DNA of 60,066 nucleotides from an uncultured Pelagibacteraceae bacterium (GTDB taxonomy: Bacteria > Pseudomonadota > Alphaproteobacteria > Pelagibacterales > Pelagibacteraceae): assembly GCA_902515355.1 (NCBI GenBank), contig CABXUA010000004.1:1-60066 (forward strand), read 5' to 3'. The position numbers were made by a program, and so were the translations under genes. Below the pieces are notes generated by a model that saw only the letters and a list, made by a program, of their open reading frames with translations, had not been told where the DNA came from and made no database searches. Positions 6,356 through 48,059 of the stretch are shown one piece after another (position 1 is the first letter of the stretch; every line of letters starts with the position of its first letter).

Positions 6356-6461
6356 TTTTTTTTTTTCTTTTGAAACTCCCCCTACCTTTTTTTGGTTTTA
6401 CAACTCTTTTTCTATATTTTCTGGTAAATAGTTCAATTGCAATTTTATTTCTTTTTTTCAA
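6342..6461 (-). CDS. arfA: ArfA-like ribosome-rescue microprotein
   Basis: A 39-residue, strongly basic ORF in the gap between the PfkB-type kinase and the response regulator. Reading the minus strand from TTG at 6461 to TAG at 6342 gives a central RVVKPKKGRGSF (residues 19-30) followed by KRKKK. This aligns by eye with the ArfA core in E. coli (RVEKNKKGKGSYMRK). ArfA recruits RF2 to ribosomes stalled on mRNAs without a stop codon. The TTG overlaps the TGA stop of the upstream regulator (TTGA), and GAAGG (plus strand 6471-6475) is a suitably spaced ribosome site, suggesting translational coupling. The protein is shorter than E. coli ArfA. Identity is inferred from one motif. Confidence 0.62.
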   Translation of the reverse strand: MKKRNKIAIELFTRKYRKRVVKPKKGRGSFKRKKKINLV

Positions 6462-7093
6462 ATCTTATAACCTTCTTTGCTATTAATAATAAAATTTTTA
6501 TCCTTAAATTCATCAATAATTTTTTTTCTCAATCGGTATATATGAGTTTCTACCGTGTGTGTATCTGCATCTGAAGCGTACTTCCAAACTGTCTCTAATA
6601 TAAATTTTTTCTTTAAAAAATCCTTTTTTATAAATAATAATTCTATTAGATGAATTTCTTTTTCAGTAACAATTACGAAAGAATTGTTTTTTTTAAGTTT
6701 TTTTTCATTTTTATCTAAAATGTAATCTTTTATTTCAATAGAGGAGTTTGAAGAAAATTTCTTTCTTGCGGATAATTCAACTACTTTTTTATTGAGTTCG
6801 TTAATATTAACTGGAATATTAAGCTTCTCGTCAAATTTAAAATTTTTAAAGTCTTTTAATTTACTAATCAGAATTTTATTTGAGGAAATTTCATTTAATG
6901 ATCTCTGTGCATTTTTATCTTTTAATATGGACTCATGAATTAACAAAACATCATATCTATTAGATAGTTCATTAATCTCGTTTTTCTTTATAAAACTCAA
7001 ATTAAAATTTAAATGTTCTTTAAGTTCTTTCAATGAATTGTTAAAATCACTCTCAGCGATACATAAAATATTAATTTTGTTATCAATATGCAT
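6458..7093 (-). CDS. OmpR/PhoB-type winged-helix regulator with degenerate receiver
   Basis: The C-terminal half (about residues 115-211) reads as a PhoB/OmpR winged-helix DNA-binding domain, with TEKEIHLIELL, the recognition-helix region DADTHTVETHIYRLRKKI and a final hairpin ending SKEGYKI. The N-terminal half has receiver-like length, but the expected phospho-acceptor position after the hydrophobic strand reads YDVLLIHESIL, with no clear acidic pocket or phospho-Asp. It may therefore act without phosphorylation. No histidine kinase is adjacent. Its ATG (7093) overlaps the ATG of the divergent YkuD gene within a palindromic ATGCAT, and its stop overlaps the ArfA-like start. Confidence 0.85.
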   Translation of the reverse strand: MHIDNKINILCIAESDFNNSLKELKEHLNFNLSFIKKNEINELSNRYDVLLIHESILKDKNAQRSLNEISSNKILISKLKDFKNFKFDEKLNIPVNINELNKKVVELSARKKFSSNSSIEIKDYILDKNEKKLKKNNSFVIVTEKEIHLIELLFIKKDFLKKKFILETVWKYASDADTHTVETHIYRLRKKIIDEFKDKNFIINSKEGYKI

Positions 7094-13653: not shown

Positions 13654-14654
13654 TATTAAAAAGTTTTTTAATAGAAAGAAATATTCAATTACTAGAAAAA
13701 TATAATATAGCTTTAATATATGGTGAAAATGAAGGTATAAAAGCTAGCCTCAAAAAAAACATTAAAAATAGTAGTAAAGGCGTTGAAACGATAACTATTT
13801 TTCAAGACGAGATAATAAAAAATAATGAAATTTTAATTAAAGAACTAAGCAATCCCTCTTTGTTCAGTTCAAAAAAAATAATTTTTTTACACGAAATAAC
13901 TGATAAAATTTATAAACAGATTATTGATTGTTTAGATTTGACAAATGAAGACCTAAAAATTTTTATTTTTTCTCCAATCCTTGATAAAAAATCAAAAATT
14001 AGAAATTTTTTTGAAAAAAGTAAAAAATTAGCTATAATACCGTGCTATCAAGACACTGAGCGTAATCTTATAATTTATTTAAATACTGAACTAAGAGACT
14101 TTAAAGGAGCCTCACATGAAATTATAAACCTTATTATATCTAACTCAAATTCAGACAGAAGAATAATAGACAATGAATTAATAAAAATAAAAAGTTTTTT
14201 TACAAATAAGATCATTGAAACAAGTCAGTTATTAGAACTTTTAAATATAAAGTTGAGCAGAGATTTTGACGAAATAAGAGATGCCTCATTACTTGGATAT
14301 AAAAAGAAAGTAAATTTATTGTTAGGACAAGTTCAATTTCAAACTGAAGATTACATATTTTATTTAAACAATCTGTCCAGAAGAGTAGCAAAATTACACG
14401 AAATCAAAAGAATAAATGAAGATACCAATGATATCGAATTGGCTCTAGATATGTTGAAATCAAAGGTTTTTTGGAAGGATAAACCAGTGTACATAGAACA
14501 ACTTAAAAAATGGAGTCTTATAGAACTAACAAAGACGTTGACTGAGATAGGCAAGGTTGAGCTGATGATGAAAAAAAACTCTATGGTAAGAAGCGATGTT
14601 TTGATTAAAGATTTGTTGATTAATGTTTGTAATCGTGCTGCTAACGCTGCCTAA
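13650..14654 (+). CDS. holA: DNA polymerase III delta subunit
   Basis: Clamp-loader subunit that opens the beta sliding clamp. Sequence similarity to HolA is low, as is common, but the order is diagnostic (lptE upstream, 4-bp ATGA overlap) and the length (334 residues) is typical. Recognisable parts include the N-terminal ALIYGENEGI segment and a C-terminal helical collar domain. It ends convergently with parB, overlapping by 14 bp. Confidence 0.88.
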   Translation: MILKSFLIERNIQLLEKYNIALIYGENEGIKASLKKNIKNSSKGVETITIFQDEIIKNNEILIKELSNPSLFSSKKIIFLHEITDKIYKQIIDCLDLTNEDLKIFIFSPILDKKSKIRNFFEKSKKLAIIPCYQDTERNLIIYLNTELRDFKGASHEIINLIISNSNSDRRIIDNELIKIKSFFTNKIIETSQLLELLNIKLSRDFDEIRDASLLGYKKKVNLLLGQVQFQTEDYIFYLNNLSRRVAKLHEIKRINEDTNDIELALDMLKSKVFWKDKPVYIEQLKKWSLIELTKTLTEIGKVELMMKKNSMVRSDVLIKDLLINVCNRAANAA

Positions 14655-15513
14655 GAAGTTTGGATACTAATTCAAATTGATCAATATTTTTATATTCTAC
14701 AACTATTCTTCCTGAATTATTTTTCCGATTTATAATATTTACTTTTAATCCTAGATTGCTCTCTATTAAATTTTGAACCTCTTCAATATTCGAGTCTATT
14801 TGTTTGTCCAATTTAAAAGGTTTCTTTTTATTTTTTGAGAGACTCTCAACTTGCCTGGAAGTTAGTCTCTTCTTAACTATATCTTCTGCTATTTCTGAAG
14901 CTTGAGGCATTCCTATTAGAGGTCTTGCCTGACCAGCAGTCAGTAGCCCTTCCTCTAACATTGATATCACGTCTTTTGGCAAGGTTAATAATCTCAAGGT
15001 ATTACTAACATGGCTTCTGCTTTTAGAAATAAATTTTGCTATTTTTTCGTGATCGTAACCAAATTCTTTGTGCAACCGCTCGTAGCCTTTAGCTTCTTCT
15101 ACAGAATTTAAATTCTCACGCTGAATGTTTTCAACTATAGCCACCTCTAAAGCTTCATTATCATCCAATTCTAAAACAACTACGGGAACTTCATGTAAAC
15201 CCGCTCTTTGAGCTGCTAGCCACCTTCTTTCTCCGGCAACTATTTGGAACTTGCCAGGGTCCATTTTATCCGTTCTTACAGCAATGGGTTGAATTAACCC
15301 ATTTTGTTTTATTGAATTAGATAACTCGATTATTTTCTCCTCGTCAAATTTAATTCTTGGCTGATATGGATTTCTATTTAGATCTCCTATTTGACAGTTT
15401 TTTTGGCTAAGATTTTTTTCCGGTTTATCGTTGTTGTTTGGGCTTTCTAGACTGGTATCACCAAATAAAGCTGACAAACCTTTTCCAAGACCTTTTTTTT
15501 TAAATTTGCTCAT
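14641..15513 (-). CDS. parB: Chromosome partitioning protein ParB
   Basis: Sequence-specific parS-binding CTPase that spreads around the origin and organises chromosome segregation with ParA. From the ATG at 15513 the protein begins MSKFKKKGLGKGLSALFG, the usual ParA-contacting end; an upstream TTG at 15531 would overlap parA. The nucleotide-binding motif GERRWLAAQRAG starts near residue 94, and ENIQRENLN follows. A helix-turn-helix (HEKIAKFISKSRSHVSNTLRLL) lies near residues 150-171. About 290 residues. Candidate parS sites lie in rsmG, about 1 kb from its start. Confidence 0.96.
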   Translation of the reverse strand: MSKFKKKGLGKGLSALFGDTSLESPNNNDKPEKNLSQKNCQIGDLNRNPYQPRIKFDEEKIIELSNSIKQNGLIQPIAVRTDKMDPGKFQIVAGERRWLAAQRAGLHEVPVVVLELDDNEALEVAIVENIQRENLNSVEEAKGYERLHKEFGYDHEKIAKFISKSRSHVSNTLRLLTLPKDVISMLEEGLLTAGQARPLIGMPQASEIAEDIVKKRLTSRQVESLSKNKKKPFKLDKQIDSNIEEVQNLIESNLGLKVNIINRKNNSGRIVVEYKNIDQFELVSKLLRQR

Positions 15514-15520
15514 TTTATAT

Positions 15521-16309
15521 TCATGTTCCAAATTGTTTTTGATTTAAAAATTCATCAGCAAGATTAAAATAAGATTTACTACCCAAACAGTTTTTGTCAT
15601 AAACTATGCAAGGCATTCCATGTGATGGTGCTTCGGATAGTCTTACGTTTCTTGGAATTACGGTTCGATAGACTTTGTCTTTAAAATATTTTCTTGCTTC
15701 AAGATCTACCTGAGATGAAAGCTTATTTCTTTTGTCAAACATTGTTAAAAGTATTCCTCTTATTTTTAATTGCGGATTCAGATTTTCTTTAATTCTTTCT
15801 ATTGTCTTTACCAATTGAGTTATACCCTCTAAAGCAAAAAATTCAGTTTGCAAAGGCACTAGCAATTCATCGGCTGCAACCAGTGCCATTATTGTTAAGA
15901 GGCTTAGCGATGGCGGGCAGTCTATAAAAATATTTTCGTACTCTCTTAAGAAATCATTGTTCTGATCTTGTAAAATTTCTTTTAATAAAAAAGCTCTTCT
16001 TTGATCATTTGCAGTCTCTACCTCTAAACCTGACAGATTTACATTAGACCCTATCAAATCAAGTCCTCTTATATTACTAGCTTGTATTATATTTTTAACT
16101 TCGTTTCCTCCAATCAATAAATTATAGACGTTTTTTTCATTATCATTATTAGATTTTCCTAACCCTGTTGTGGCATTTCCCTGAGGATCTAAATCGATCA
16201 CTAATATCTTCTTGTTTTTTTGCGCTAATGCAGTGGCAAGGTTAATTACTGTGGTTGTTTTTCCAACCCCGCCCTTTTGATTAATCACTGATATTATAGA
16301 TTTGGTCAC
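15521..16309 (-). CDS. parA: Chromosome partitioning ATPase ParA
   Basis: Deviant Walker-type ATPase that binds DNA non-specifically and moves ParB-parS complexes. The deviant Walker A motif KGGVGKTTT lies at residues 12-20, with the signature Lys. Walker A' (DLDPQGNATTGLG) follows, then the Walker B segment FIDCPPSLSLLT. At 262 residues it is typical of chromosomal ParA/Soj. It lies in the conserved order mnmE-mnmG-rsmG-parA-parB, one base after rsmG and seven bases before parB. Confidence 0.97.
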   Translation of the reverse strand: MTKSIISVINQKGGVGKTTTVINLATALAQKNKKILVIDLDPQGNATTGLGKSNNDNEKNVYNLLIGGNEVKNIIQASNIRGLDLIGSNVNLSGLEVETANDQRRAFLLKEILQDQNNDFLREYENIFIDCPPSLSLLTIMALVAADELLVPLQTEFFALEGITQLVKTIERIKENLNPQLKIRGILLTMFDKRNKLSSQVDLEARKYFKDKVYRTVIPRNVRLSEAPSHGMPCIVYDKNCLGSKSYFNLADEFLNQKQFGT

Positions 16310-16310
16310 T

Positions 16311-16931
16311 CTATTTGTTAATATTTACTATCAATACTCTCGAATCTTTATTAGTTAAGCTTGTCTCCAATCTATACTTATAATTCAAATCTTTTGAAAG
16401 TTTATTAAGCTCTTCCTGTGCACTCTTTCCCTTTAATATTATTAATTTATGACTTTTAGTTGCAATTTCACGTGAAATTCTTATTACTTCAGGCAATTTT
16501 TTAAATGCTCTAGAAACTATGTAGCCACTATCTAATATATGAGATTGATAATCATTCTCATATATATAACATTTAATATTTAAACTATTAATAGCATCCT
16601 TAAGAAAATGACATTTAGCTTTAGATTTTTCGTAAAGTTTCACGTGAAACTTGTGATTCTTATTAAATATTGAAAGTATTAACCCAGGAAAACCTGCTCC
16701 AGAGCCAAGATCAGCTAAAGAATCAGACTTGTTGAAATCAATAAATTTAACCAACTGAGCAGAATCTAGTATGTGTCGACTCCAAGCTTCTTTTTCAGTA
16801 TTTTTTGATATTAAATTGTATTTATTATTAAATTTTAATAATAAATTGAGAAATAAATCTAATTTTTTTATATCTTCAAGGGTAAAACCCAAATTCTTTA
16901 AAATAGCCTTAACTTCATCAGCCTTCATCAA
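16311..16931 (-). CDS. rsmG: 16S rRNA G527 N7-methyltransferase RsmG (GidB)
   Basis: SAM-dependent methyltransferase that modifies G527 of 16S rRNA. The SAM-binding motif [10 protein letters not shown] is near residue 76. The sequence also contains [11 protein letters not shown], a substrate-recognition segment of RsmG. At 206 residues it is full length. It overlaps the mnmG 3' end by 4 bp. Two parS-like palindromes are embedded in its coding sequence, so this gene doubles as a centromere-like region. Confidence 0.96.
16464..16479. promoter_or_regulatory. parS: parS-like site 2
   Basis: AATTTCACGTGAAATT is a perfect 16-bp palindrome sharing the 12-bp core TTTCACGTGAAA with the parS consensus TGTTTCACGTGAAACA. 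It differs at the outer positions, so it is expected to be a weaker ParB site. It lies about 170 bp from the stronger site within rsmG. Confidence 0.7.
16636..16651. promoter_or_regulatory. parS: parS site 1 (ParB binding site)
   Basis: AGTTTCACGTGAAACT is a perfect palindrome containing the 14-base core GTTTCACGTGAAAC of the widely conserved parS sequence; only the outermost base pair differs. The symmetry extends to 18 bp (16635-16652). It lies inside rsmG, next to parA-parB and about 8 kb from the putative oriC, as expected for an origin-proximal centromere. Confidence 0.9.
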
Positions 16932-22433: not shown

Positions 22434-23429
22434 TTATATATATTTACTTATTAAATGTTTGAATAAATTTATGTGATCTTCATTATCGTTTAAGCAAGGG
22501 ATCAAATCAAAATTTTCTCCACCTGCATTTACAAAACTTTCTTTGCCCTGTATTAAAATTTCTTCCAAAGTTTCTACACAATCAGATGCAAAGCCAGGAC
22601 AAATTACTAATATATTCTTTACTCCTTCTTTCGGTAATTTCTCTAAAGTTTTATCTGTGTAAGGTTGTAGCCATTCTTGGGGGCCAAACCTTGATTGAAA
22701 AGTTGTTTTAATCTTAATATTTTGATCGAATTTTTCAGTTAAAAGTCTTGAAGTTTTTTGACAATAACATTGATAAGGATCTCCTTTTTCAAAATATTTT
22801 TTTGGTATTCCATGGTAAGAAACTAATATCAATTCGGGTTTCCAAGTTATCTCTGATATTTTTTTTTTTATACTTTTTATAAGAGCTTCGATATATAAAG
22901 ACTCTGACTCGTAATGAGGAATTATTTGTAAACTTGGTTGCCATCTCATCTTCATTAAACTTCTATAAACTTCGTCACAAACTGTTGCGGTCGTTGCGGC
23001 TGCATACTGAGGATACAAAGGTAAAACCACCATGTTCTCACAACCTGCAGATTGTAATTTTCTAACTTTGCTATAGATGCTTGGATTGCCATATCTCATA
23101 GCATAATCAACTATAACTTTATCTGAACCTATTTTATCGATTAATTTTTTTGTTTGCATGATTGTGTAGTATCTGAGAGGTGACATGTTTTCTTTTTTCA
23201 TCCATATTTTTTTATATGCCTCAGCAGTCTTGGAAGGTCTGAAATTTAGGATTATTAGATTCAAGATTATTTGCCATAATATTGGGTTTACTTCTATTAC
23301 TCTCCGGTCAGACAAAAATTCTTTTAAATATTTTCTTATATCAATCCAGCTTGTGGAATCTGGAGTACCAAGGTTTACTAGAAGAACACCTGTCTTACCA
23401 AATTTTACTTTAGGGTGATCGTTGTTCAT
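22434..23429 (-). CDS. hemH: Ferrochelatase
   Basis: Inserts iron into protoporphyrin IX to make haem. The N-terminus has GVLLVNLGTPDS and LKEFLSDRRVIE, both typical of HemH. The iron-binding His is in SYHGIP near the middle, followed by QCYCQKTSRLL and the FQSRFGPQEWLQPYT signature. At 331 residues it is a normal bacterial length. It overlaps hemE by 4 bp (ATGA) and lies four bases before hemJ. Confidence 0.97.
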   Translation of the reverse strand: MNNDHPKVKFGKTGVLLVNLGTPDSTSWIDIRKYLKEFLSDRRVIEVNPILWQIILNLIILNFRPSKTAEAYKKIWMKKENMSPLRYYTIMQTKKLIDKIGSDKVIVDYAMRYGNPSIYSKVRKLQSAGCENMVVLPLYPQYAAATTATVCDEVYRSLMKMRWQPSLQIIPHYESESLYIEALIKSIKKKISEITWKPELILVSYHGIPKKYFEKGDPYQCYCQKTSRLLTEKFDQNIKIKTTFQSRFGPQEWLQPYTDKTLEKLPKEGVKNILVICPGFASDCVETLEEILIQGKESFVNAGGENFDLIPCLNDNEDHINLFKHLISKYI

Positions 23430-24433
23430 TTGTAAGATTTAACTCTATTAATTATTTTTGCAAGTATATCTGGGTTTGTTTCTGGTAGAAGACCATGTCC
23501 AAGATTGAATATATAAGGTGTGTTTCGAAAATTATCTAAATACTTATCAACCTCAAGATTAATTTTCTTTTCGTCTTCAAATAAGATTTTAGGATCCATG
23601 CCTCCTTGAAGACAAACATTTTTTAAATTATCTTTTGCCCATTTTGGATCTATATCGTAATCAATGTTAATGCCATGAGGTTTAACAATTTCTAAGAATT
23701 TTTTGTAGTTTACCCCGATACCTTTTGGGAAACAAACAACCGGTAAATTTATCTCTTTGCAATAATCAACTAGTTTTTTGTTGGGAGTAAAACAATAATC
23801 ATTTATTTCGTTGTCTGGAATAATTCCTGCCCAAGAATCAAAAATTTGCACAACATCTGCGCCTGCGTTCATTTGGTTTTTTATATGTAGACAAAGAAAT
23901 TTATTAAGTTTTTCAAGTACCACGTCTCTCTTAAAATCTTTTTTTATATTTTCTAAATTAATTTTTTTTTTATCTTGTCTTAATCCCATCATATAAACTA
24001 TTAGTGTCCAAGGTGCTCCAATAAATGAAATTAAGCTCTTTTCTCTACTTAATTTTTTTCTTGTTTTTGTTATAGCTTGATAAACAGGATTTAGTTTTTT
24101 TGTAAAATTATCTTCTTTGTTTTCTAAAAAAACTTTCATATTAAATTTAGATAATTTTGGTCCTTTGCCTTTAATAAATTCAACTGTTTGTCCTAATCCA
24201 TAGGGCACCATTAAAATATCAGAAAAAATTATTGCTGCGTCTAAATCAAAGCGATCTAGGGGTTGTAAAGTTATTTCAGAACTTAAATCACTATTAAGAC
24301 ATAATTTAATGAAATTTGGATTCTTTGATCTTATTTCTCTAAATTCAGGAAGATACCGACCTGCTTGTCTCATAAACCATACAGGAATACAAGACGTATC
24401 TTTTTTTATTAAACAATTAGTTATTTTACTCAT
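23426..24433 (-). CDS. hemE: Uroporphyrinogen III decarboxylase
   Basis: Converts uroporphyrinogen III to coproporphyrinogen III in the haem pathway. The N-terminal signature PVWFMRQAGRYLPEFRE is present, with the catalytic Asp region FSDILMVPYGLG. Later comes GAPWTLIVYM. At 335 residues it is complete. It is the first gene of hemE-hemH-hemJ and starts at the edge of the putative oriC, the position it holds in Rickettsia and Caulobacter. Confidence 0.98.
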   Translation of the reverse strand: MSKITNCLIKKDTSCIPVWFMRQAGRYLPEFREIRSKNPNFIKLCLNSDLSSEITLQPLDRFDLDAAIIFSDILMVPYGLGQTVEFIKGKGPKLSKFNMKVFLENKEDNFTKKLNPVYQAITKTRKKLSREKSLISFIGAPWTLIVYMMGLRQDKKKINLENIKKDFKRDVVLEKLNKFLCLHIKNQMNAGADVVQIFDSWAGIIPDNEINDYCFTPNKKLVDYCKEINLPVVCFPKGIGVNYKKFLEIVKPHGINIDYDIDPKWAKDNLKNVCLQGGMDPKILFEDEKKINLEVDKYLDNFRNTPYIFNLGHGLLPETNPDILAKIINRVKSYK

Positions 24434-24713
24434 TAATATAATTATATATTTATAGGTAGTATATGTAATAGGTCATGTTAGTTAGATAAATAAGTAATTA
24501 TACAGAGTTTTACACATTTTATTCTAATTAAAAACCGCAATAATTATAAAATTATCAAGATTTATAAATATTATACACACTCTATTAAAACTATTATGCT
24601 TTATATTAACATTTAATAAAATGTTAGAAATTTGTTAATTAATGTTAATGTTTTTTTTAATAATAAAAAACAAATGTATAAAAAAAAGTTATAACTAAAA
24701 TATCAACACACTT
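24434..24713. other. oriC: Putative chromosomal replication origin (oriC)
   Basis: A 280-bp gene-free, extremely A/T-rich region between divergent hemE and the PPSR gene. In Rickettsia and Caulobacter oriC is at or next to hemE, with the PPSR-type gene (RP001-like) on the other side. It contains an exact DnaA box (24571-24579), a near match TTTTACACA (24508-24516), and a perfect hairpin TAACATTT-AATA-AAATGTTA (24607-24626). A GTTAAT-repeat stretch (about 24634-24650) lies next to a T8 run. Transcription points away on both sides. No gene was seen in it. Confidence 0.82.
24571..24579 (+). promoter_or_regulatory. DnaA box
   Basis: TTATACACA matches the DnaA box consensus TTATNCACA exactly. It lies near the middle of the hemE-PPSR intergenic region. 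Confidence 0.75.
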
Positions 24714-25535
24714 ATGTCCGAAAAATACAATGTATATCTTATATCAGACTCAACCGGTGAAACCCTTGATAGAATTTTCCTCTCTCTGAAGTCTCAATTT
24801 ACAAATTTTGATTATAATAAAAAAGAGTTTGTGTTTGTTAGAACACAACAGCAAGTAGATAAAATTTTAAAAGAAAGTGAAGAGACAAAAAACTCAATTA
24901 TTCTATATACAATAGTTGAAACAAAACTAGCAAAATATTTAGGCGATAAAGCTGGTGAAAAAAACATTCCCTGTTTTGGAATATTAGGAAATCTGATTTT
25001 AACATTTTCTAAACTCTTAAATCAAAAAGCCTCTCACAAACCTAGTGCGCAACACGTCTTAGATGCTGATTACTATAATAGAATAGAGGCTATACAATTT
25101 ACCATGTCTCACGATGACGGAAAAAAAACGGAAGATATTGAAAAATCAGATATTGTTCTTTTCGGAGTGAGCAGGACTGGAAAAACTCCCACATCTATTT
25201 ATCTTGCCAATAGAGGATATAAAACTATGAACATACCTTTAGTTCTAAATCAAGAAATTCCAGAAAAGCTAAAATTAGGAAAAGTCAAAGCCTGCGTAGT
25301 TGGCTTGTATGCAGATCCTTTAAGGCTATCTGATATAAGGAGAAATAGAGTTAACATAATGAACGAAAGAAAATTATCAAATTATACAGACTTAGACTCA
25401 ATTAAAAATGAAATTGAGGACTCCAAAAAGATCTTTAAGAAACATAATTGGCCGATTATCGATGTTACCAGAAAATCAATCGAAGAAACAGCGGCATCCA
25501 TTTTAAAAATATATGATATACAAAAAAATAAATGA
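24714..25535 (+). CDS. PPSR-family kinase/pyrophosphorylase (PEP synthase or PPDK regulator)
   Basis: Member of the DUF299 family, which switches phosphoenolpyruvate synthase or pyruvate phosphate dikinase by ADP-dependent phosphorylation and phosphate-dependent dephosphorylation. The P-loop GVSRTGKTPTSIYLANRG lies near residue 150. The N-terminal YLISDSTGET and the middle KPSAQHVLDADYYNRIEAI are family features. At 273 residues it is full length. Its partner dikinase is not in this window. It is the first gene right of the origin and overlaps maf by 4 bp. Confidence 0.93.
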   Translation: MSEKYNVYLISDSTGETLDRIFLSLKSQFTNFDYNKKEFVFVRTQQQVDKILKESEETKNSIILYTIVETKLAKYLGDKAGEKNIPCFGILGNLILTFSKLLNQKASHKPSAQHVLDADYYNRIEAIQFTMSHDDGKKTEDIEKSDIVLFGVSRTGKTPTSIYLANRGYKTMNIPLVLNQEIPEKLKLGKVKACVVGLYADPLRLSDIRRNRVNIMNERKLSNYTDLDSIKNEIEDSKKIFKKHNWPIIDVTRKSIEETAASILKIYDIQKNK

Positions 25536-42459: not shown

Positions 42460-44106
42460 TCAATTATTTTTCTTGAGTATCCAATCTATTTTTTTTTCTT
42501 TATTATTTGTTGTCCCGTAAATAGTAATACAGAAGTTATTTAATATTTGATTTCTTCCCAAAAATATACTTTTTTCTATTAAGATTTTTTCATTTTCTGA
42601 AGAAAAGACTAGAGATTTATTTTTTTCGATTTGCAAAACTATACTTTTCTCTCCAATGGTTTTTACTGCTGAAATTCCAGGGTAAAGGTGAAATCTTATT
42701 GCATAATTTATCAACGGAATTTTATCCTTTTTTTTAATCAAAATATCTGAGCCTAATAAATCTTCATTATTTTTTTTTATTTTAATAACTCTCTTATGTA
42801 TATAACCAAGATTTTCGTAAGCATTATGTGAAGCGGTTACTTCGACAGAATTATCTTCTTCAAAAAAATTAATATCTGAAGTTTTAAAATTATTTTTGAT
42901 TAAAGCACCATAAGTGCTATTTATTAATTTATTTCTCTCAAATTTTGTCACAGAAGTATCATTTATACAAAGGGTGGATTGAGCAGATGTTAATCTGCTT
43001 AGCAATTCTGCTTTTTTTGATATTTTAGAACCAAATCCACAATTGGTTATAATTTTATTTTCATTAATATAATACTCAAAAGATAGTGGACCAGATTGAT
43101 AATTGTTTGAAAAACTTTTTTTAGGTGGTTCACCTACATCAAAAAATATGTTTTGTTTTTTATTTTTTAAAATGTAAATATTTCCTATCAAATTTTTATT
43201 TTTTTTAAATTTATAATCCAAACTTCTCACATATTCTAAATATTTATCAATCTTATTTTCTGTATTTCCATTAAATAAAGGCGTCTCGTTTCTTGACGTT
43301 TTAATTGAATTAAGACAATTTAAATTTTTTTCAATGATATCATCTAGGTATTCTGGAATAAAATTTTGTGCATCTTTGCTACATTCCTTAATCAATATTA
43401 AGTATTTAGAAATCTGAACTAAGTCATTAGGATTTCTGCTATTAGGAAAACCTTGATTATCAAAAAAATTTTCTACTAATTTTTCTAACTCCTTAATGGC
43501 AAAATCAAAATTGTCGTTGTATTCTTTAAAAACTAAGCCTGAGAGTAATATTGCTGTAATATTTTCTATTTTTTTTGAGTAGTTATTTTGGAATTCAATA
43601 TTTTTTTTTAAGTGGTTAATTTGTATAACAATAGATTGAAGGAAATGATCTTTGAAATTGTTATCTGTATTATTAAGAATAATTTCTGAGTTTAATATCC
43701 AGGAAATTACTCTTTTACTTAAAACATCACTATCCCATACAATTTTTTTATATTTTTGATTTTTATATATCCATTTCGAAATAATTTTTTGAATAATGAC
43801 TCCATCGTTTTTTCTATCAATTAAACTAAGCCAAAAAAAATTATTTAAATTTTTTTCATTTTTTACAGATAAAGGCTTACTCCATAAAATTTCTAAGTTT
43901 ACATTTTCAATTTTAAATGAAAAATTTTGATGATTGGTAAGAGAAGATAATAAAAATGGATTAGGATAAAAGTAAAATTGTTTAGGTATTTCTGATTTTA
44001 AAGATTTATAGTAATAGTTTGTTCTGAAATAAAATCTTTTAATTGCCTTAGTTAAAATTATTTTTATAGCTAAAAAGTAAAAAAAAATACCTTTTAAATT
44101 AAACAT
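42460..44106 (-). CDS. Heparinase II/III-family protein
   Basis: A 548-residue protein with an N-terminal alpha-helical toroid and a C-terminal beta-sandwich, as in heparinase II/III-like proteins. The C-terminal half has LSFEYYINENKIITNCGFG, SRLTSAQSTLCINDTS and HNAYENLGYIHKRVI, the pattern of the alphaproteobacterial family found between rpe and purH. No signal peptide is obvious; the N-terminus is basic with a hydrophobic stretch. The substrate is unknown and may relate to the envelope or a polysaccharide rather than heparin. Confidence 0.88.
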   Translation of the reverse strand: MFNLKGIFFYFLAIKIILTKAIKRFYFRTNYYYKSLKSEIPKQFYFYPNPFLLSSLTNHQNFSFKIENVNLEILWSKPLSVKNEKNLNNFFWLSLIDRKNDGVIIQKIISKWIYKNQKYKKIVWDSDVLSKRVISWILNSEIILNNTDNNFKDHFLQSIVIQINHLKKNIEFQNNYSKKIENITAILLSGLVFKEYNDNFDFAIKELEKLVENFFDNQGFPNSRNPNDLVQISKYLILIKECSKDAQNFIPEYLDDIIEKNLNCLNSIKTSRNETPLFNGNTENKIDKYLEYVRSLDYKFKKNKNLIGNIYILKNKKQNIFFDVGEPPKKSFSNNYQSGPLSFEYYINENKIITNCGFGSKISKKAELLSRLTSAQSTLCINDTSVTKFERNKLINSTYGALIKNNFKTSDINFFEEDNSVEVTASHNAYENLGYIHKRVIKIKKNNEDLLGSDILIKKKDKIPLINYAIRFHLYPGISAVKTIGEKSIVLQIEKNKSLVFSSENEKILIEKSIFLGRNQILNNFCITIYGTTNNKEKKIDWILKKNN

Positions 44107-44109
44107 TTA

Positions 44110-44772
44110 TTAATTTGTGCGAAGCAATTCTATATTTTTTTTAAGATTTCCGTTATTTTCTTTAAAAATTGTTGATCCAGATACAATAACATTTGCGCCA
44201 GCGTCCTTCACTGATTTGGAGTTTTGGAAATTTATTCCTCCATCTATTTCAATATCAATATTTAATTTTTTCTTATCTACAATGCTTTTAATAGCTTTTA
44301 TTTTTGGCAAGATTTCTGGCATAAATTTCTGACCTGCGAAACCTGGCTCAACACTCATTATTAGTATTAAGTCGATTTCATTCAAATATTTTTCAATTAA
44401 ACTTACCTGCGTTTTAGGCTTTAAAGAGATGCCAACTTTTTTATTAAATTTCTTTATTAATTTAATTGTTTTATCTACGTTATCAGTAGCTTCTGGATGA
44501 AATGTTATTATATCCGCTCCCGACTCTGCAAAATCTTTTACATATTTATCTACAGGAGAAATCATAAGATGCACATCAAATATTTTTTTTGTAACTGGAC
44601 GAAGCCTTTTAATTACCTCCGGGCCTATTGTTATGTTGGGCACAAAATGTCCGTCCATTACATCGATGTGAATATAGTCTGCCCCAGCATTTTCTAATGA
44701 TAAAATTTCATCTCCTAACTTACTGAAGTTAGCCGATAAGATAGAGGGAGATATTTTTATTATTTGGTCCAT
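44110..44772 (-). CDS. rpe: Ribulose-phosphate 3-epimerase
   Basis: Pentose-phosphate enzyme, a TIM barrel. It has ISPSILSANFSKLGDEI at the start, IHIDVMDGHFVPNI with the metal-binding His/Asp, and MSVEPGFAGQKFMP and IEIDGGI. At 220 residues it is typical. Its start lies 13 bp inside the preceding small membrane-protein gene. Confidence 0.98.
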   Translation of the reverse strand: MDQIIKISPSILSANFSKLGDEILSLENAGADYIHIDVMDGHFVPNITIGPEVIKRLRPVTKKIFDVHLMISPVDKYVKDFAESGADIITFHPEATDNVDKTIKLIKKFNKKVGISLKPKTQVSLIEKYLNEIDLILIMSVEPGFAGQKFMPEILPKIKAIKSIVDKKKLNIDIEIDGGINFQNSKSVKDAGANVIVSGSTIFKENNGNLKKNIELLRTN

Positions 44773-45104
44773 TGATTATAAATAGAATATAGCTCTTTAG
44801 ATATATCACTTTCTAAAGGAAAAGATAACATTCCCATTACTGAATAGCCTAATAGGTATGGCATCAAATAAAATCTAAATAAATAAAAAAACCAGGCAAC
44901 GTAAAGAGGAACCATTGGTCTTAGTAGAAAACTTGGAGTTATTGGATCAAATAATCGCAATAGTGGATTTGTGAATTTAACAAAAACTTTCATAAAAAAA
45001 AAATCAGAGTCCTCTCTTTGAAAAATGTTCATAGCCGATCTTCCTATTAGGGTCCACATTACTATACCTAAGAGATAATCAAGAGTAAGTATCCAGATCG
45101 ACAT
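44760..45104 (-). CDS. Small membrane protein, possibly YggT-like
   Basis: A 114-residue hydrophobic protein. One membrane segment lies near residues 3-22 and others near 65-95. The middle has the phrase FVKFTNPLLRLFDPITPSF, which resembles the YggT pattern of a hydrophobic helix followed by NPLLR and a Pro-rich loop. Similarity is weak, so YggT membership is tentative. It overlaps the rpe start, so the two are probably co-translated. Confidence 0.6.
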   Translation of the reverse strand: MSIWILTLDYLLGIVMWTLIGRSAMNIFQREDSDFFFMKVFVKFTNPLLRLFDPITPSFLLRPMVPLYVAWFFYLFRFYLMPYLLGYSVMGMLSFPLESDISKELYSIYNQWTK

Positions 45105-45130
45105 ATAGAGACAATAACATTTATTAGGTA

Positions 45131-45160
45131 AAAAAAAAGGGGCGAATAAATCGCCCCTTT
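45131..45160 (-). terminator. Rho-independent terminator of the symporter operon
   Basis: GGGGCGA (45139-45145) and TCGCCCC (45151-45157) pair around a 5-base loop, with A/T flanks that lengthen the stem. On the minus strand the hairpin is followed by a T8 run, about 20 bases after the symporter stop. Confidence 0.9.
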
Positions 45161-45179
45161 AATTTTTAAATTTAGTTAT

Positions 45180-47027
45180 TTAGTGCTGTTTACCAAGAAT
45201 AGCTCTTCCACTAGGTACTCTAGTTTCCTCAACCATTCTTTGTGTTGCAGCATCAGGTGCTTTCGTCATTAAGCTTACAATTACCATAACCACTAAGCAT
45301 ACTGGAGCTCCGATCATACCAAATCTTAAGTGATCGATACCCGTCATATCCGATAGCCATGTATTGCCCATAAACTTAGGATATACATATACTAGGTACA
45401 TTGTTCCGGCAGCTAATCCTGAAAGCATTCCAGCTATAGCTCCTTCTCTTGTAGCTCTCTTCCACCATACTCCTAGTACAAGTGGGAAGAATAGACCTGA
45501 CATAGCAAAGTCAAACGCCCAAGCAACTGCTCCTAAGATACTAGTGATACGCATAGATGCAATATAAGCACCCGCGGCACCAATAACGACTAATAGTACT
45601 CGCGCAACTATTAATCTCTTTCTAACATCTGCTTTAGGGTCAACCATTTTAAAGTAAACGTCATGAGATAAAGCATTTGCAATTGCAAGTACTAATCCAT
45701 CAGCAGTTGACATCGCAGCTGCCATACCACCAGCAGCAACTAGTCCAGAAATTACATAAGGTAATCCTGCTACTTCAGGAGTAGCTAACACAACCACACC
45801 TGTTCTCATGAACCACTCATTTAATTGAAGTATGCCATCACCATTAAAGTCAGCTATGAAAACTTGTTTCTGAGCTGACCATGCTTGAACCCAATCAATA
45901 GCCATAACTGCACTAATAGGTTTTCCTATAATACCAGTAGGTAAATTAGGATCCATTAATGAAATTTTAGATAATGTTGCAAGCATTGGAGCTGATGAGT
46001 AAAGCAAGAAGATAAAGAATAGCGACCATGCTACTGATTTTCTAGCTTGTTTTACTGATGGAGTTGTAAAGTATCTCATAAGGATATGAGGTAACGATGC
46101 AGTTCCTATCATCATACACATTGCTAACGAGATATATTTCCATACAGCCATTCCACCTTCAGGTACACCTGTGTGTGATACTGCTATAGATTTTAAGCCA
46201 CCTGGTACTCCAGCTGCTTTTATATCTGCCGCACTATTTTTAACTAGTCCAAATTGTTGTTCAAGTGCTCCAATTCTAGCTACTTCATCGCCTAGCATTA
46301 AGTGAGGGAATACTCCTCCACCTATTCTATTACTAATCCAGAAAACTGGAATTAAGTAAGCTATGATTAGTACTATATATTGAGCAACTTGCGTCCAAGT
46401 AACGGCTCTCATTCCGCCTAACATTGAACATAACAAGATACTAACTAGTCCTACCCAAACACCTAACTCAAATGGAATTTGCAATGCTCTTGCAGCAATT
46501 GTTCCAGTAGCGTTAATTTGTGCAGTCACATAAGTAAATGATGCTAACACTAGAACTAATACAGCACAGAATCTAACTCCGTTTCCGCCGTATCTTGTTC
46601 CAATGAAATCAGGTACTGTGTAACATCCAAATTTTCTTAAGTATGGTGCTAATAAAGTTGACACAAGCACATAACCGCCTGTCCAACCAACTAAGAAAGC
46701 CATGTAACCATAGCCACCAAAGTAAACACCACCTGCTAATGCTACGAACGATGCACCAGACATCCAGTCTGCTGCCGTCGCCATTCCATTAAATACTGTT
46801 GGTACTTGTCTACCAGCTACATAATACGCATCAACTTGCACGGTTCTTGATAACCATCCAATTACTGCATAAATGCAAACTGTGAAAGCAACGAACATAA
46901 TTCCGATTGCTTCTTTTGAGACTCCTCCTTGTTCTAGAATAGCCATCAATATGATGAAGACTAAAAAGCCCCCGGTATATAAACCGTATATTCTAGGTAG
47001 GTTTTGTATAAATCCACCTTTAAACAT
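45180..47027 (-). CDS. Sodium:solute symporter (SSS family, ActP-like) with an EF-hand loop
   Basis: A 615-residue secondary transporter with about 13 membrane segments, resembling the acetate/monocarboxylate SSS subfamily that pairs with a DUF4212 subunit. Family-like stretches include DAYYVAGRQVPTVFNGMATA, SGASFVALAGG and GLVAAGGMAAAMSTADGL. A hydrophilic loop holds DFNGDGILQLNE (residues 393-404), a textbook EF-hand Ca-binding loop. Codons are G/C-richer than in neighbours, suggesting high expression. It is co-transcribed with the small subunit (1-base overlap) and lies about 1 kb from acs, so acetate or a related acid is the likely substrate. Confidence 0.9.
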   Translation of the reverse strand: MFKGGFIQNLPRIYGLYTGGFLVFIILMAILEQGGVSKEAIGIMFVAFTVCIYAVIGWLSRTVQVDAYYVAGRQVPTVFNGMATAADWMSGASFVALAGGVYFGGYGYMAFLVGWTGGYVLVSTLLAPYLRKFGCYTVPDFIGTRYGGNGVRFCAVLVLVLASFTYVTAQINATGTIAARALQIPFELGVWVGLVSILLCSMLGGMRAVTWTQVAQYIVLIIAYLIPVFWISNRIGGGVFPHLMLGDEVARIGALEQQFGLVKNSAADIKAAGVPGGLKSIAVSHTGVPEGGMAVWKYISLAMCMMIGTASLPHILMRYFTTPSVKQARKSVAWSLFFIFLLYSSAPMLATLSKISLMDPNLPTGIIGKPISAVMAIDWVQAWSAQKQVFIADFNGDGILQLNEWFMRTGVVVLATPEVAGLPYVISGLVAAGGMAAAMSTADGLVLAIANALSHDVYFKMVDPKADVRKRLIVARVLLVVIGAAGAYIASMRITSILGAVAWAFDFAMSGLFFPLVLGVWWKRATREGAIAGMLSGLAAGTMYLVYVYPKFMGNTWLSDMTGIDHLRFGMIGAPVCLVVMVIVSLMTKAPDAATQRMVEETRVPSGRAILGKQH

Positions 47028-47281
47028 TAGTCATCCTCCTCTCCAAAGCCGCACTCTTCGTCAATTTTTTCTTGTCTGTTAGCAAACCAGAATATTAATA
47101 ATACGAACGCAAGAAGTGATCCTTGTGCTGTCATATAATATGCTAGTGGGTAACCAAGAAAACTTGCCGAGTTGATTTCAGCTCCGAACATGAAAATAAC
47201 CGTTGAAAAGAAGAACCAAATCGCCAATGTAATTATCATATGGTTTTTGGTCTTTTCCCAATGTTTTTCTTTATTCGACAT
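47027..47281 (-). CDS. DUF4212 small subunit of sodium/substrate symporter
   Basis: An 84-residue protein with two membrane helices (about residues 15-38 and 48-70) and acidic ends. Family features are HWEKTKNHMIITLAIWFF near the start and GYPLAYYMTAQGSLLAFVLLIFW. DUF4212 proteins accompany SSS symporters of this type. The ribosome site AAGGGGG precedes the ATG closely. Its stop shares one base with the symporter start. Confidence 0.92.
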   Translation of the reverse strand: MSNKEKHWEKTKNHMIITLAIWFFFSTVIFMFGAEINSASFLGYPLAYYMTAQGSLLAFVLLIFWFANRQEKIDEECGFGEEDD

Positions 47282-47426
47282 ATTTCCCCCTTAAGGTTGT
47301 TTATTCGATATTATTGCGTAAGATCATACCCATCTAGTTGCTAATTAAAAGTTAAAAAAACCAATGTTGAGTGCTATAAAGACTGAAAAATAAAGGAAAA
47401 ATAAACGATAGTTTTATTAATACAAC

Positions 47427-48059
47427 GTGAGATTGAATCTAAATAAGATAATTTCAACCTTGAAACACTTAAAGGAATATATTTTCCCAGTAAAAAAACT
47501 TACTGATAAATTTAAAACAATAAGTACCATTCAACATTTAGAGACATTCATAGAAGAAAAATCTGCTCATGTAGTTCAAACCACTTTGTATGGATACATA
47601 AAAACTAGAATGGGCTTTAAACACACAATTATGTTTGAGGATGAAAAATTTTTAGAATCAATGGATATTGCAAAATGGAATATTTATGTCGTGGCGGTTG
47701 CAGATTGTACTTTTTATTCTTTCTCATACTTAATGAGTAAGAAAGGACTAAAAAAAAATGACTCAAGAGATGTTTTTTTAAGCGTTTTGGCAAGGCAGAA
47801 ATCAAATGGCTTGAGTTCAAAGATATATAATGATGGAAAGACGAGTTTTGAAAATCGATTTGGAAAAATAAATTGGCAAACTTATTTTCAAGACGATCCT
47901 TTTATAAACAGTGGAAACGCACTTTATAAGTGGTCTCCAATAGCAGATAATTTAAAAGAACTGGATAAGGAAATAGTTCTTAATTCTATAAAATATAAAT
48001 GGAATAGTGTTAAAGCGGAATTTGAAAAAATTACGGCGAACTCACACTTTGATATTTAA
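47427..48059 (+). CDS. Uncharacterised protein beside acetate genes
   Basis: I do not recognise this 210-residue soluble protein. It starts at GTG (47427), has no signal peptide or membrane helix, and is predicted mixed alpha/beta with basic and aromatic residues. Notable phrases are VVQTTLYGYIKTRMGFKH and NIYVVAVADCTFYSFSYLM. It is divergent from the symporter operon (about 145 bp between) and converges with acs, three bases apart. The position suggests a link to acetate uptake, but this is only contextual. Confidence 0.75.
   Translation: MRLNLNKIISTLKHLKEYIFPVKKLTDKFKTISTIQHLETFIEEKSAHVVQTTLYGYIKTRMGFKHTIMFEDEKFLESMDIAKWNIYVVAVADCTFYSFSYLMSKKGLKKNDSRDVFLSVLARQKSNGLSSKIYNDGKTSFENRFGKINWQTYFQDDPFINSGNALYKWSPIADNLKELDKEIVLNSIKYKWNSVKAEFEKITANSHFDI

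Follow-up and report, generated by a model that had tools for sequence, protein, structure and literature searches.

The window, that is, the whole stretch of 60,066 nucleotides that was analyzed, contains a gap between hemE and PPSR that the initial annotation had put forward as a putative oriC (Table 1). The gap is real and has the reported length of 280 bp, with an A+T content of 84.3% compared to roughly 70% across the window, the above-average value expected of a Cori-type origin. Pfam confirmed all the flanking genes that had been named, hemE on the left and PPSR, maf, aroE, coaE, and dnaQ on the right, where the series continues with secB and fxsA, while the order to the left of hemE is hemH-hemJ-rho-mnmE-mnmG-rsmG-parA-parB, also by Pfam, with a methyltransferase-like ORF, named from its sequence alone, between rho and mnmE. 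The genes read away from the gap locally, as had been described, but this does not hold for the whole window, which has no strand bias. The source is a draft genome of 766 kb in 28 contigs, estimated as 75% complete, in which dnaA was not detected, and the nearest relative compared was AG-916-G03, a Pelagibacteraceae (SAR11) single-cell genome whose PPSR is 95% identical. Elsewhere in the window, G+C rises up to 39% at 44000-48000, well above the remaining sequence, in a region that covers a 615-aa minus-strand ORF (45180-47027), and a 211-aa ORF at 6458-7093 has a C-terminal response-regulator DNA-binding domain (Trans_reg_C) as its sole domain match.

Table 1. Features of the hemE-PPSR gap and of its surroundings, in window coordinates.
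Feature	Position	Strand	Basis or state in relatives
parB and parA	14641..16309	-	Pfam ParB_N, HTH_ParB, AAA_31
parS-like palindrome AGTTTCACGTGAAACT, inside rsmG	16636..16651		core GTTTCACGTGAAAC
hemE (left flank)	23426..24433	-	Pfam URO-D 1.2e-85
Putative oriC, gap between divergent hemE and PPSR	24434..24713		280 bp; conserved gap, constraint, skew
A/T-only stretch beside trio region, candidate DNA unwinding element	24434..24453		sequence and position; putative function
Degenerate DnaA-trio, TAN repeats at 3-bp spacing	24452..24471	+	register statistic
GTCA spacer, right part of conserved GGTC (24471-24474)	24472..24475	+	genus consensus TAGGTC-N-TGTTA
DnaA-box-like TAACTAACA adjoining trio	24476..24484	-	orthologous sites; TTATTCACA here in some other SAR11
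Possible second, very degenerate tandem box TTATTTATC	24485..24493	-	tandem place in sister genera; weak here
DnaA-box-like TTATACAGA	24498..24506	+	TTATACATA in 31/99, plus other TTATACA forms
DnaA-box-like TTTTACACA	24508..24516	+	TTTTATACA in 43/99
Exact DnaA box TTATACACA	24571..24579	+	present in 4-5/99 SAR11 relatives
Box-like ATATTAACA, overlapped by left hairpin arm	24603..24611	+	TTATTAACA 34, TTATCAACA 11, ATATCAACA 10 of 99
Perfect 8-bp hairpin TAACATTT/AAATGTTA	24607-24614/24619-24626		sequence
Box-like TTTCTAACA, overlapped by right hairpin arm	24622..24630	-	ATTTAAACA 26, ATTTTAACA 13
Box-like TAATTAACA, 11 bp from 24622 site	24633..24641	-	identical 9-mer in 55/99
GTTAAT repeats	24634 and 24644		
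Box-like ACATTAACA, 10 bp from 24633 site	24643..24651	-	AAATTAACA 12, TAATTAACA 10, TTACTCACA 8
Box-like ATATCAACA, 14 bp before PPSR start	24700..24708	+	TTATTAACA in 54/99; TTATACACA there in G103
PPSR (right flank; Kinase-PPPase, formerly DUF299/COG1806)	24714..25535	+	Pfam 4.5e-89

Every one of the 135 relatives in which both genes could be seen has the order hemE-gap-PPSR; their gaps measure 263-286 bp and comprise 99 distinct sequences. The hemE/COG1806 boundary of alphaproteobacterial Cori-type origins is present both here, by Pfam, and in these 135 relatives. Compared to the nearest relative, 266 of the 280 positions of the gap are identical (95%) without any indel, whereas identity at the fourfold sites of eight flanking genes is 72% (P 5e-17 against the gap), indicating that this noncoding sequence is under strong constraint. 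The conserved element follows the locus and not hemE or PPSR. The genus g2 (G101 and G107) has hemE elsewhere and rho at the border of the gap, yet TTATTAGGTCATGTTTATAA is kept in G101 and TTATTAGGGAATGTTTATAA in G107, and in the sister family f2 the gap is bordered by maf and the trio/box element is still present, with PPSR not detected in most f2 genomes (one very weak match; L263-L275). In g2 (L261, L262, L208, and L209), hemE and hemH are found beside hemB- and hemF-like genes, and its hemE is only about 31% identical; one f2 genome (G102) encodes a ferrochelatase-like protein apparently unlike the others. As DNA, the gap does not fold above its own shuffles (z +0.98), and its reading as a structured RNA was rejected, with no match in Rfam.

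An exact DnaA box, a near match to it, a perfect 8-bp hairpin, and GTTAAT repeats had all been reported in the gap from the letters alone, and all of them are there, with TTATACAGA and TTTTACACA as near matches. The proposal that a single exact box would make this a minimal origin did not survive, as about nine sites resembling DnaA boxes occupy conserved positions in the gap, most of them fitting nnATNAACA. Nine sites differ from TTATNMACA (M being A or C) by no more than one base when 3.1 are expected, at least nine being reached in 6 of 1000 shuffles, and the density of TTATNMACA-like sites is the highest of all 280-bp stretches in the 60-kb window. The single exact box is weak evidence: one TTATACACA arises in the gap by chance with P ~0.027 (Markov shuffles of the gap), the 9-mer occurs seven times in the draft genome compared to six control matches, and its site reads TTATTCACA in the nearest relative and TTATTAACA in five others. 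Looking for the boxes in relatives, as had been recommended, showed that the drifted box-like sites are conserved but the exact box is not, and its count was dropped as chief evidence for that reason. The use of TAGGTCNTGTTA as a stand-alone genome signature was also abandoned, with two exact matches and mismatched matches at control level.

Across the gaps of 99 relatives, TTATNAACA was found 187 times when 13.2 were expected, 14-fold over shuffles, while the canonical TTATNCACA was found 10 times (3.3 expected) and neither TTATNTACA (11 vs 12.8) nor TTATNGACA (2 vs 2.0) was enriched. At the same loci, the density of TTATNAACA is 6.8/kb in the gaps, 0.18/kb in other intergenic DNA (~38-fold lower), and 0.12/kb in ORFs. 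The perfect TTATNAACA is absent from the window's gap, which has one- and two-mismatch forms at conserved places. The several canonical boxes of a Cori-type origin were not found, with TTATNCACA present once in the window's gap and once in 10 of the 99 relatives, and because AACA-type variants are enriched instead, we classify the gap as a variant and not as a typical Cori-type member. AACA and CACA forms interchange at orthologous sites, the one before PPSR reading TTATTAACA, TTATCAACA, TTATACACA, and similar, and domain IV of DnaA is intact in relatives, with the ARPRQ-type and RDHTTV signatures kept. From these patterns we infer that, for most of the DnaA boxes at the gap, the textbook TTATNCACA has drifted to TTATNAACA, which leaves standard box searches almost nothing to find there, and that SAR11 DnaA would accept A or C at box position 6. 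A and C alone among the bases carry an amino group in the major groove, and this shared group could be the reason for the tolerance, which we offer as a rationale and not as a result. The broader proposal, in which SAR11 origins have replaced TTATNCACA by TTATNAACA as their box, with the recognition residues of DnaA preserved, tolerate A or C and not T or G at position 6, are missed by standard searches, and lack CtrA control, may or may not hold, and we weigh the two outcomes evenly.

The end of the gap beside hemE resembles a degenerate BUS module, defined as a DnaA-box, a spacer, and DnaA-trios (PMC8287927). In 39 genus representatives, TA falls in the trio frame in 40% of cases, whereas the two remaining frames have 12% and 8%, and 0 of 5000 register shuffles matched the observed signal; this statistic used a neutral anchor with the anchoring triplet left out and stands at genus level, where relatives are not independent samples. 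Trios in register beside a box are thus present as a genus-level result. The trio regions of the sister family and of other groups were read by eye, and in one f2 genome (G106) the same place is TAGTAGTAGTAG-TTGTACC-TGTGAATTT, a trio, a GC-containing spacer, and a DnaA box, some f2 genomes having perfect TAG repeats in the corresponding position and others more degenerate forms. The published search requires ≥3 consecutive NAN and, no more than 16 bp from them, a box that deviates from TTATCCACA at ≤2 positions (PMC8287927). Its rules would not call a module here because TAACTAACA deviates at four positions and the triplet run, read by hand, breaks after two; the box is recognized only with a genus-specific box definition.

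Strand skew was analyzed in relatives because the draft is incomplete and fragmented and has no detected dnaA. We used T/A skew at fourfold sites in sampled stretches of chromosomes, with gene strand fitted as a separate term. Whole-chromosome scans of two closed relatives, with 20 stretches each, placed the T/A switch at ~620 kb in G115, where the gap is at 604.7 kb, and within the sampling interval from 1260 kb to the map end in G126, where the gap is at 1262 kb. Denser stretches between the gap and dnaA were taken from four more closed genomes and from a long contig of the close relative G287, dnaA lying ~64 kb away on the hemE side in genera g3 and g5 and 72 kb away on the PPSR side in G287. 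The pooled scan of seven relatives and the window peaks at offset 0, which is the gap, with a deviance of 132 compared to 24 near dnaA; four of the pooled genomes were sampled around the gap only, so they test the gap against dnaA and not against the whole chromosome. The replichore skew switch of a Cori-type origin is therefore found in relatives at fourfold T/A, and the window alone gave no T/A skew signal.

Raw GC skew, whose minimum had been proposed as a check, is dominated by gene direction and has a shallow minimum ~200 kb off in G115. Since raw skew tracks gene direction, such a minimum is a poor test, and raw GC skew was discarded for both the window and the sampled chromosomes. The leading strand is usually G-rich, a pattern that GC skew did not show here. 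At fourfold sites, the SAR11 leading strand is A-rich, and C- rather than G-rich, above all in G287 (L221-L260). Strand-bias maxima are scattered tens of kb about the gap and were given secondary weight.

The perfectly palindromic parS core GTTTCACGTGAAAC has a single copy in the draft, 8 kb from the gap, and in 9 of 11 genomes (the window's own and 8 of 10 others) one copy is located at a distance of 7-20 kb from the gap. It switches side of the gap with inversions. Blocks located 5-69 kb out are found on the opposite side at a similar distance when G287 is compared with other genera and the window with G217, and the innermost part around the gap is collinear between genera. Such side-swapped blocks are the pattern that inversions near-symmetric about an origin would leave.

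The position of the gap, its constraint, the arrangement of its motifs, and the switch of skew seen in relatives are computational observations and, together with parS, the near-symmetric rearrangements, and an element that outlasts either flanking gene, they support the oriC proposed in the initial annotation. We are highly confident that the gap is the chromosomal replication origin (oriC) of this SAR11 bacterium, even though its box-like sites are weak, with one canonical box here and none in ~90% of relatives. As dnaA is the usual origin marker in many bacteria, the origin could instead be placed at dnaA, which lies 64-72 kb away in the relatives where the distance was taken, with the gap just a neighbor. 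However, the stretches between the two carry the skew of the dnaA-side arm, which places the switch at the gap, TTATNMACA occurs 0-1 times per 3.2 kb at dnaA loci compared to 2 per 275 bp in gaps, and parS is close to the gap and not to dnaA, making an origin at dnaA very improbable. It is likewise very improbable that the gap is just a divergent hemE/PPSR promoter/operator, with conserved repeats bound by a transcription regulator. Both genes are transcribed from the gap, so their promoters must be in it, and the TGTTAAT repeats could fit a dimeric regulator, but the core element is kept without hemE (rho/PPSR flanks, G101 and G107) and without PPSR (hemE/maf flanks, f2) and is therefore not the promoter of either gene. 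Promoter-like matches were not above shuffles (5 vs 6.3), and the skew, parS, and the symmetry of the rearrangements would be left unexplained.

Within the origin explanation, the AACA-type repeats could be binding sites for a different protein that regulates initiation, DnaA itself acting only at the site next to the trio; being a variant of that explanation, this reading has a probability that overlaps with the main one. These repeats are strongly conserved, merely resemble DnaA boxes, and are in some cases spaced 10-11 bp, which would suit a separate regulator, but AACA and CACA interchange at orthologous positions (TTATCAACA/TTATTAACA/TTATACACA), and a search for CtrA-like proteins gave none above 37% identity. 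We consider a second protein possible but rather doubtful.

The control layers known from other origins were also searched. The CtrA site TTAA-N7-TTAA is absent from the window's gap and has matches in one half of the gaps from relatives, at 0.62 per gap compared to 0.21 in a simple shuffle, an excess that may come from TTAACA-rich repeats. A CtrA ortholog was not found, the best response regulators being ~29-37% identical to the Caulobacter query, with the window's draft genome incomplete; such values are typical of general response regulators. Pelagibacter has been described as lacking ctrA by Brilli et al. (PMC2877005), and CtrA-type control of the gap is probably missing. The IHF sequence WATCAANNNNTTR has no match in the gap and one in 17 of the 99 relatives, so CtrA sites, a CtrA protein, and an IHF site, all part of a Cori-type origin, were not found here. 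A CcrM homolog has been reported for SAR11 (PMC3973325), but GANTC is present in only 5 of 99 relatives' gaps, so this homolog is unlikely to act via the gap DNA. Both the CtrA and the CcrM layers were dropped, as clear sites and a CtrA ortholog were not found.

The motif anatomy suggests how DnaA binding, melting, and firing could proceed at the gap. DnaA would bind weak boxes scattered over the gap, chiefly nnATNAACA with some TTATNCACA and including the helically spaced set at 24622-24651, would nucleate at the box-like site at 24476-24484, and would then extend past the short GC spacer to cover the TAN trios. The A/T-only stretch on the hemE side would melt and two helicases would load, sending the left fork through hemE-rho-mnmE-mnmG-parAB and the right fork through PPSR-maf-aroE, while parS/ParAB, 8 kb off, would separate the new origins. 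A firm origin position and anatomy would make growth rates readable from ori-to-ter depth in metagenomes, and the gap offers a concrete DNA target for how a CtrA-less cell times replication. Our results also suggest that drift of DnaA boxes is possible in A/T-rich genomes and that box-counting tools can therefore overlook real origins, and if the box shift is true, very abundant bacteria use an origin that standard searches miss and that works without CtrA control.

Our literature search found no paper analyzing the SAR11 oriC, and the closest known systems are those of other bacteria. The Cori of Caulobacter crescentus was mapped by experiment and the ori of Rickettsia prowazekii was predicted, both at a hemE/COG1806 boundary, and the SAR11 gap shares with them the divergent flanking genes, the A/T-rich gap, and the DnaA-box-like sites (PMC1914354). 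It differs from them in being shorter (about 270-285 vs >400 bp), in having mostly AACA-type boxes, and, in the window, in having neither CtrA sites nor an IHF match. The predicted origins of Wolbachia, Ehrlichia, and Anaplasma are similarly reduced, near hemE, and relaxed in CtrA content (PMC1914354), although most of them keep some CtrA sites and DnaA boxes and that of Wolbachia has COG1253 as its right flank. As in the BUS of Bacillus subtilis and others, the SAR11 module combines a box with TAN triplets in register, the two being separated by a short spacer that contains GC (PMC8287927), but in this genome the box has drifted to TAACTAACA and the trio run is interrupted. The SAR11 gap is thus of a known kind in its location and flanks, and a variant in its drifted boxes, its degenerate unwinding module, and its missing CtrA layer.
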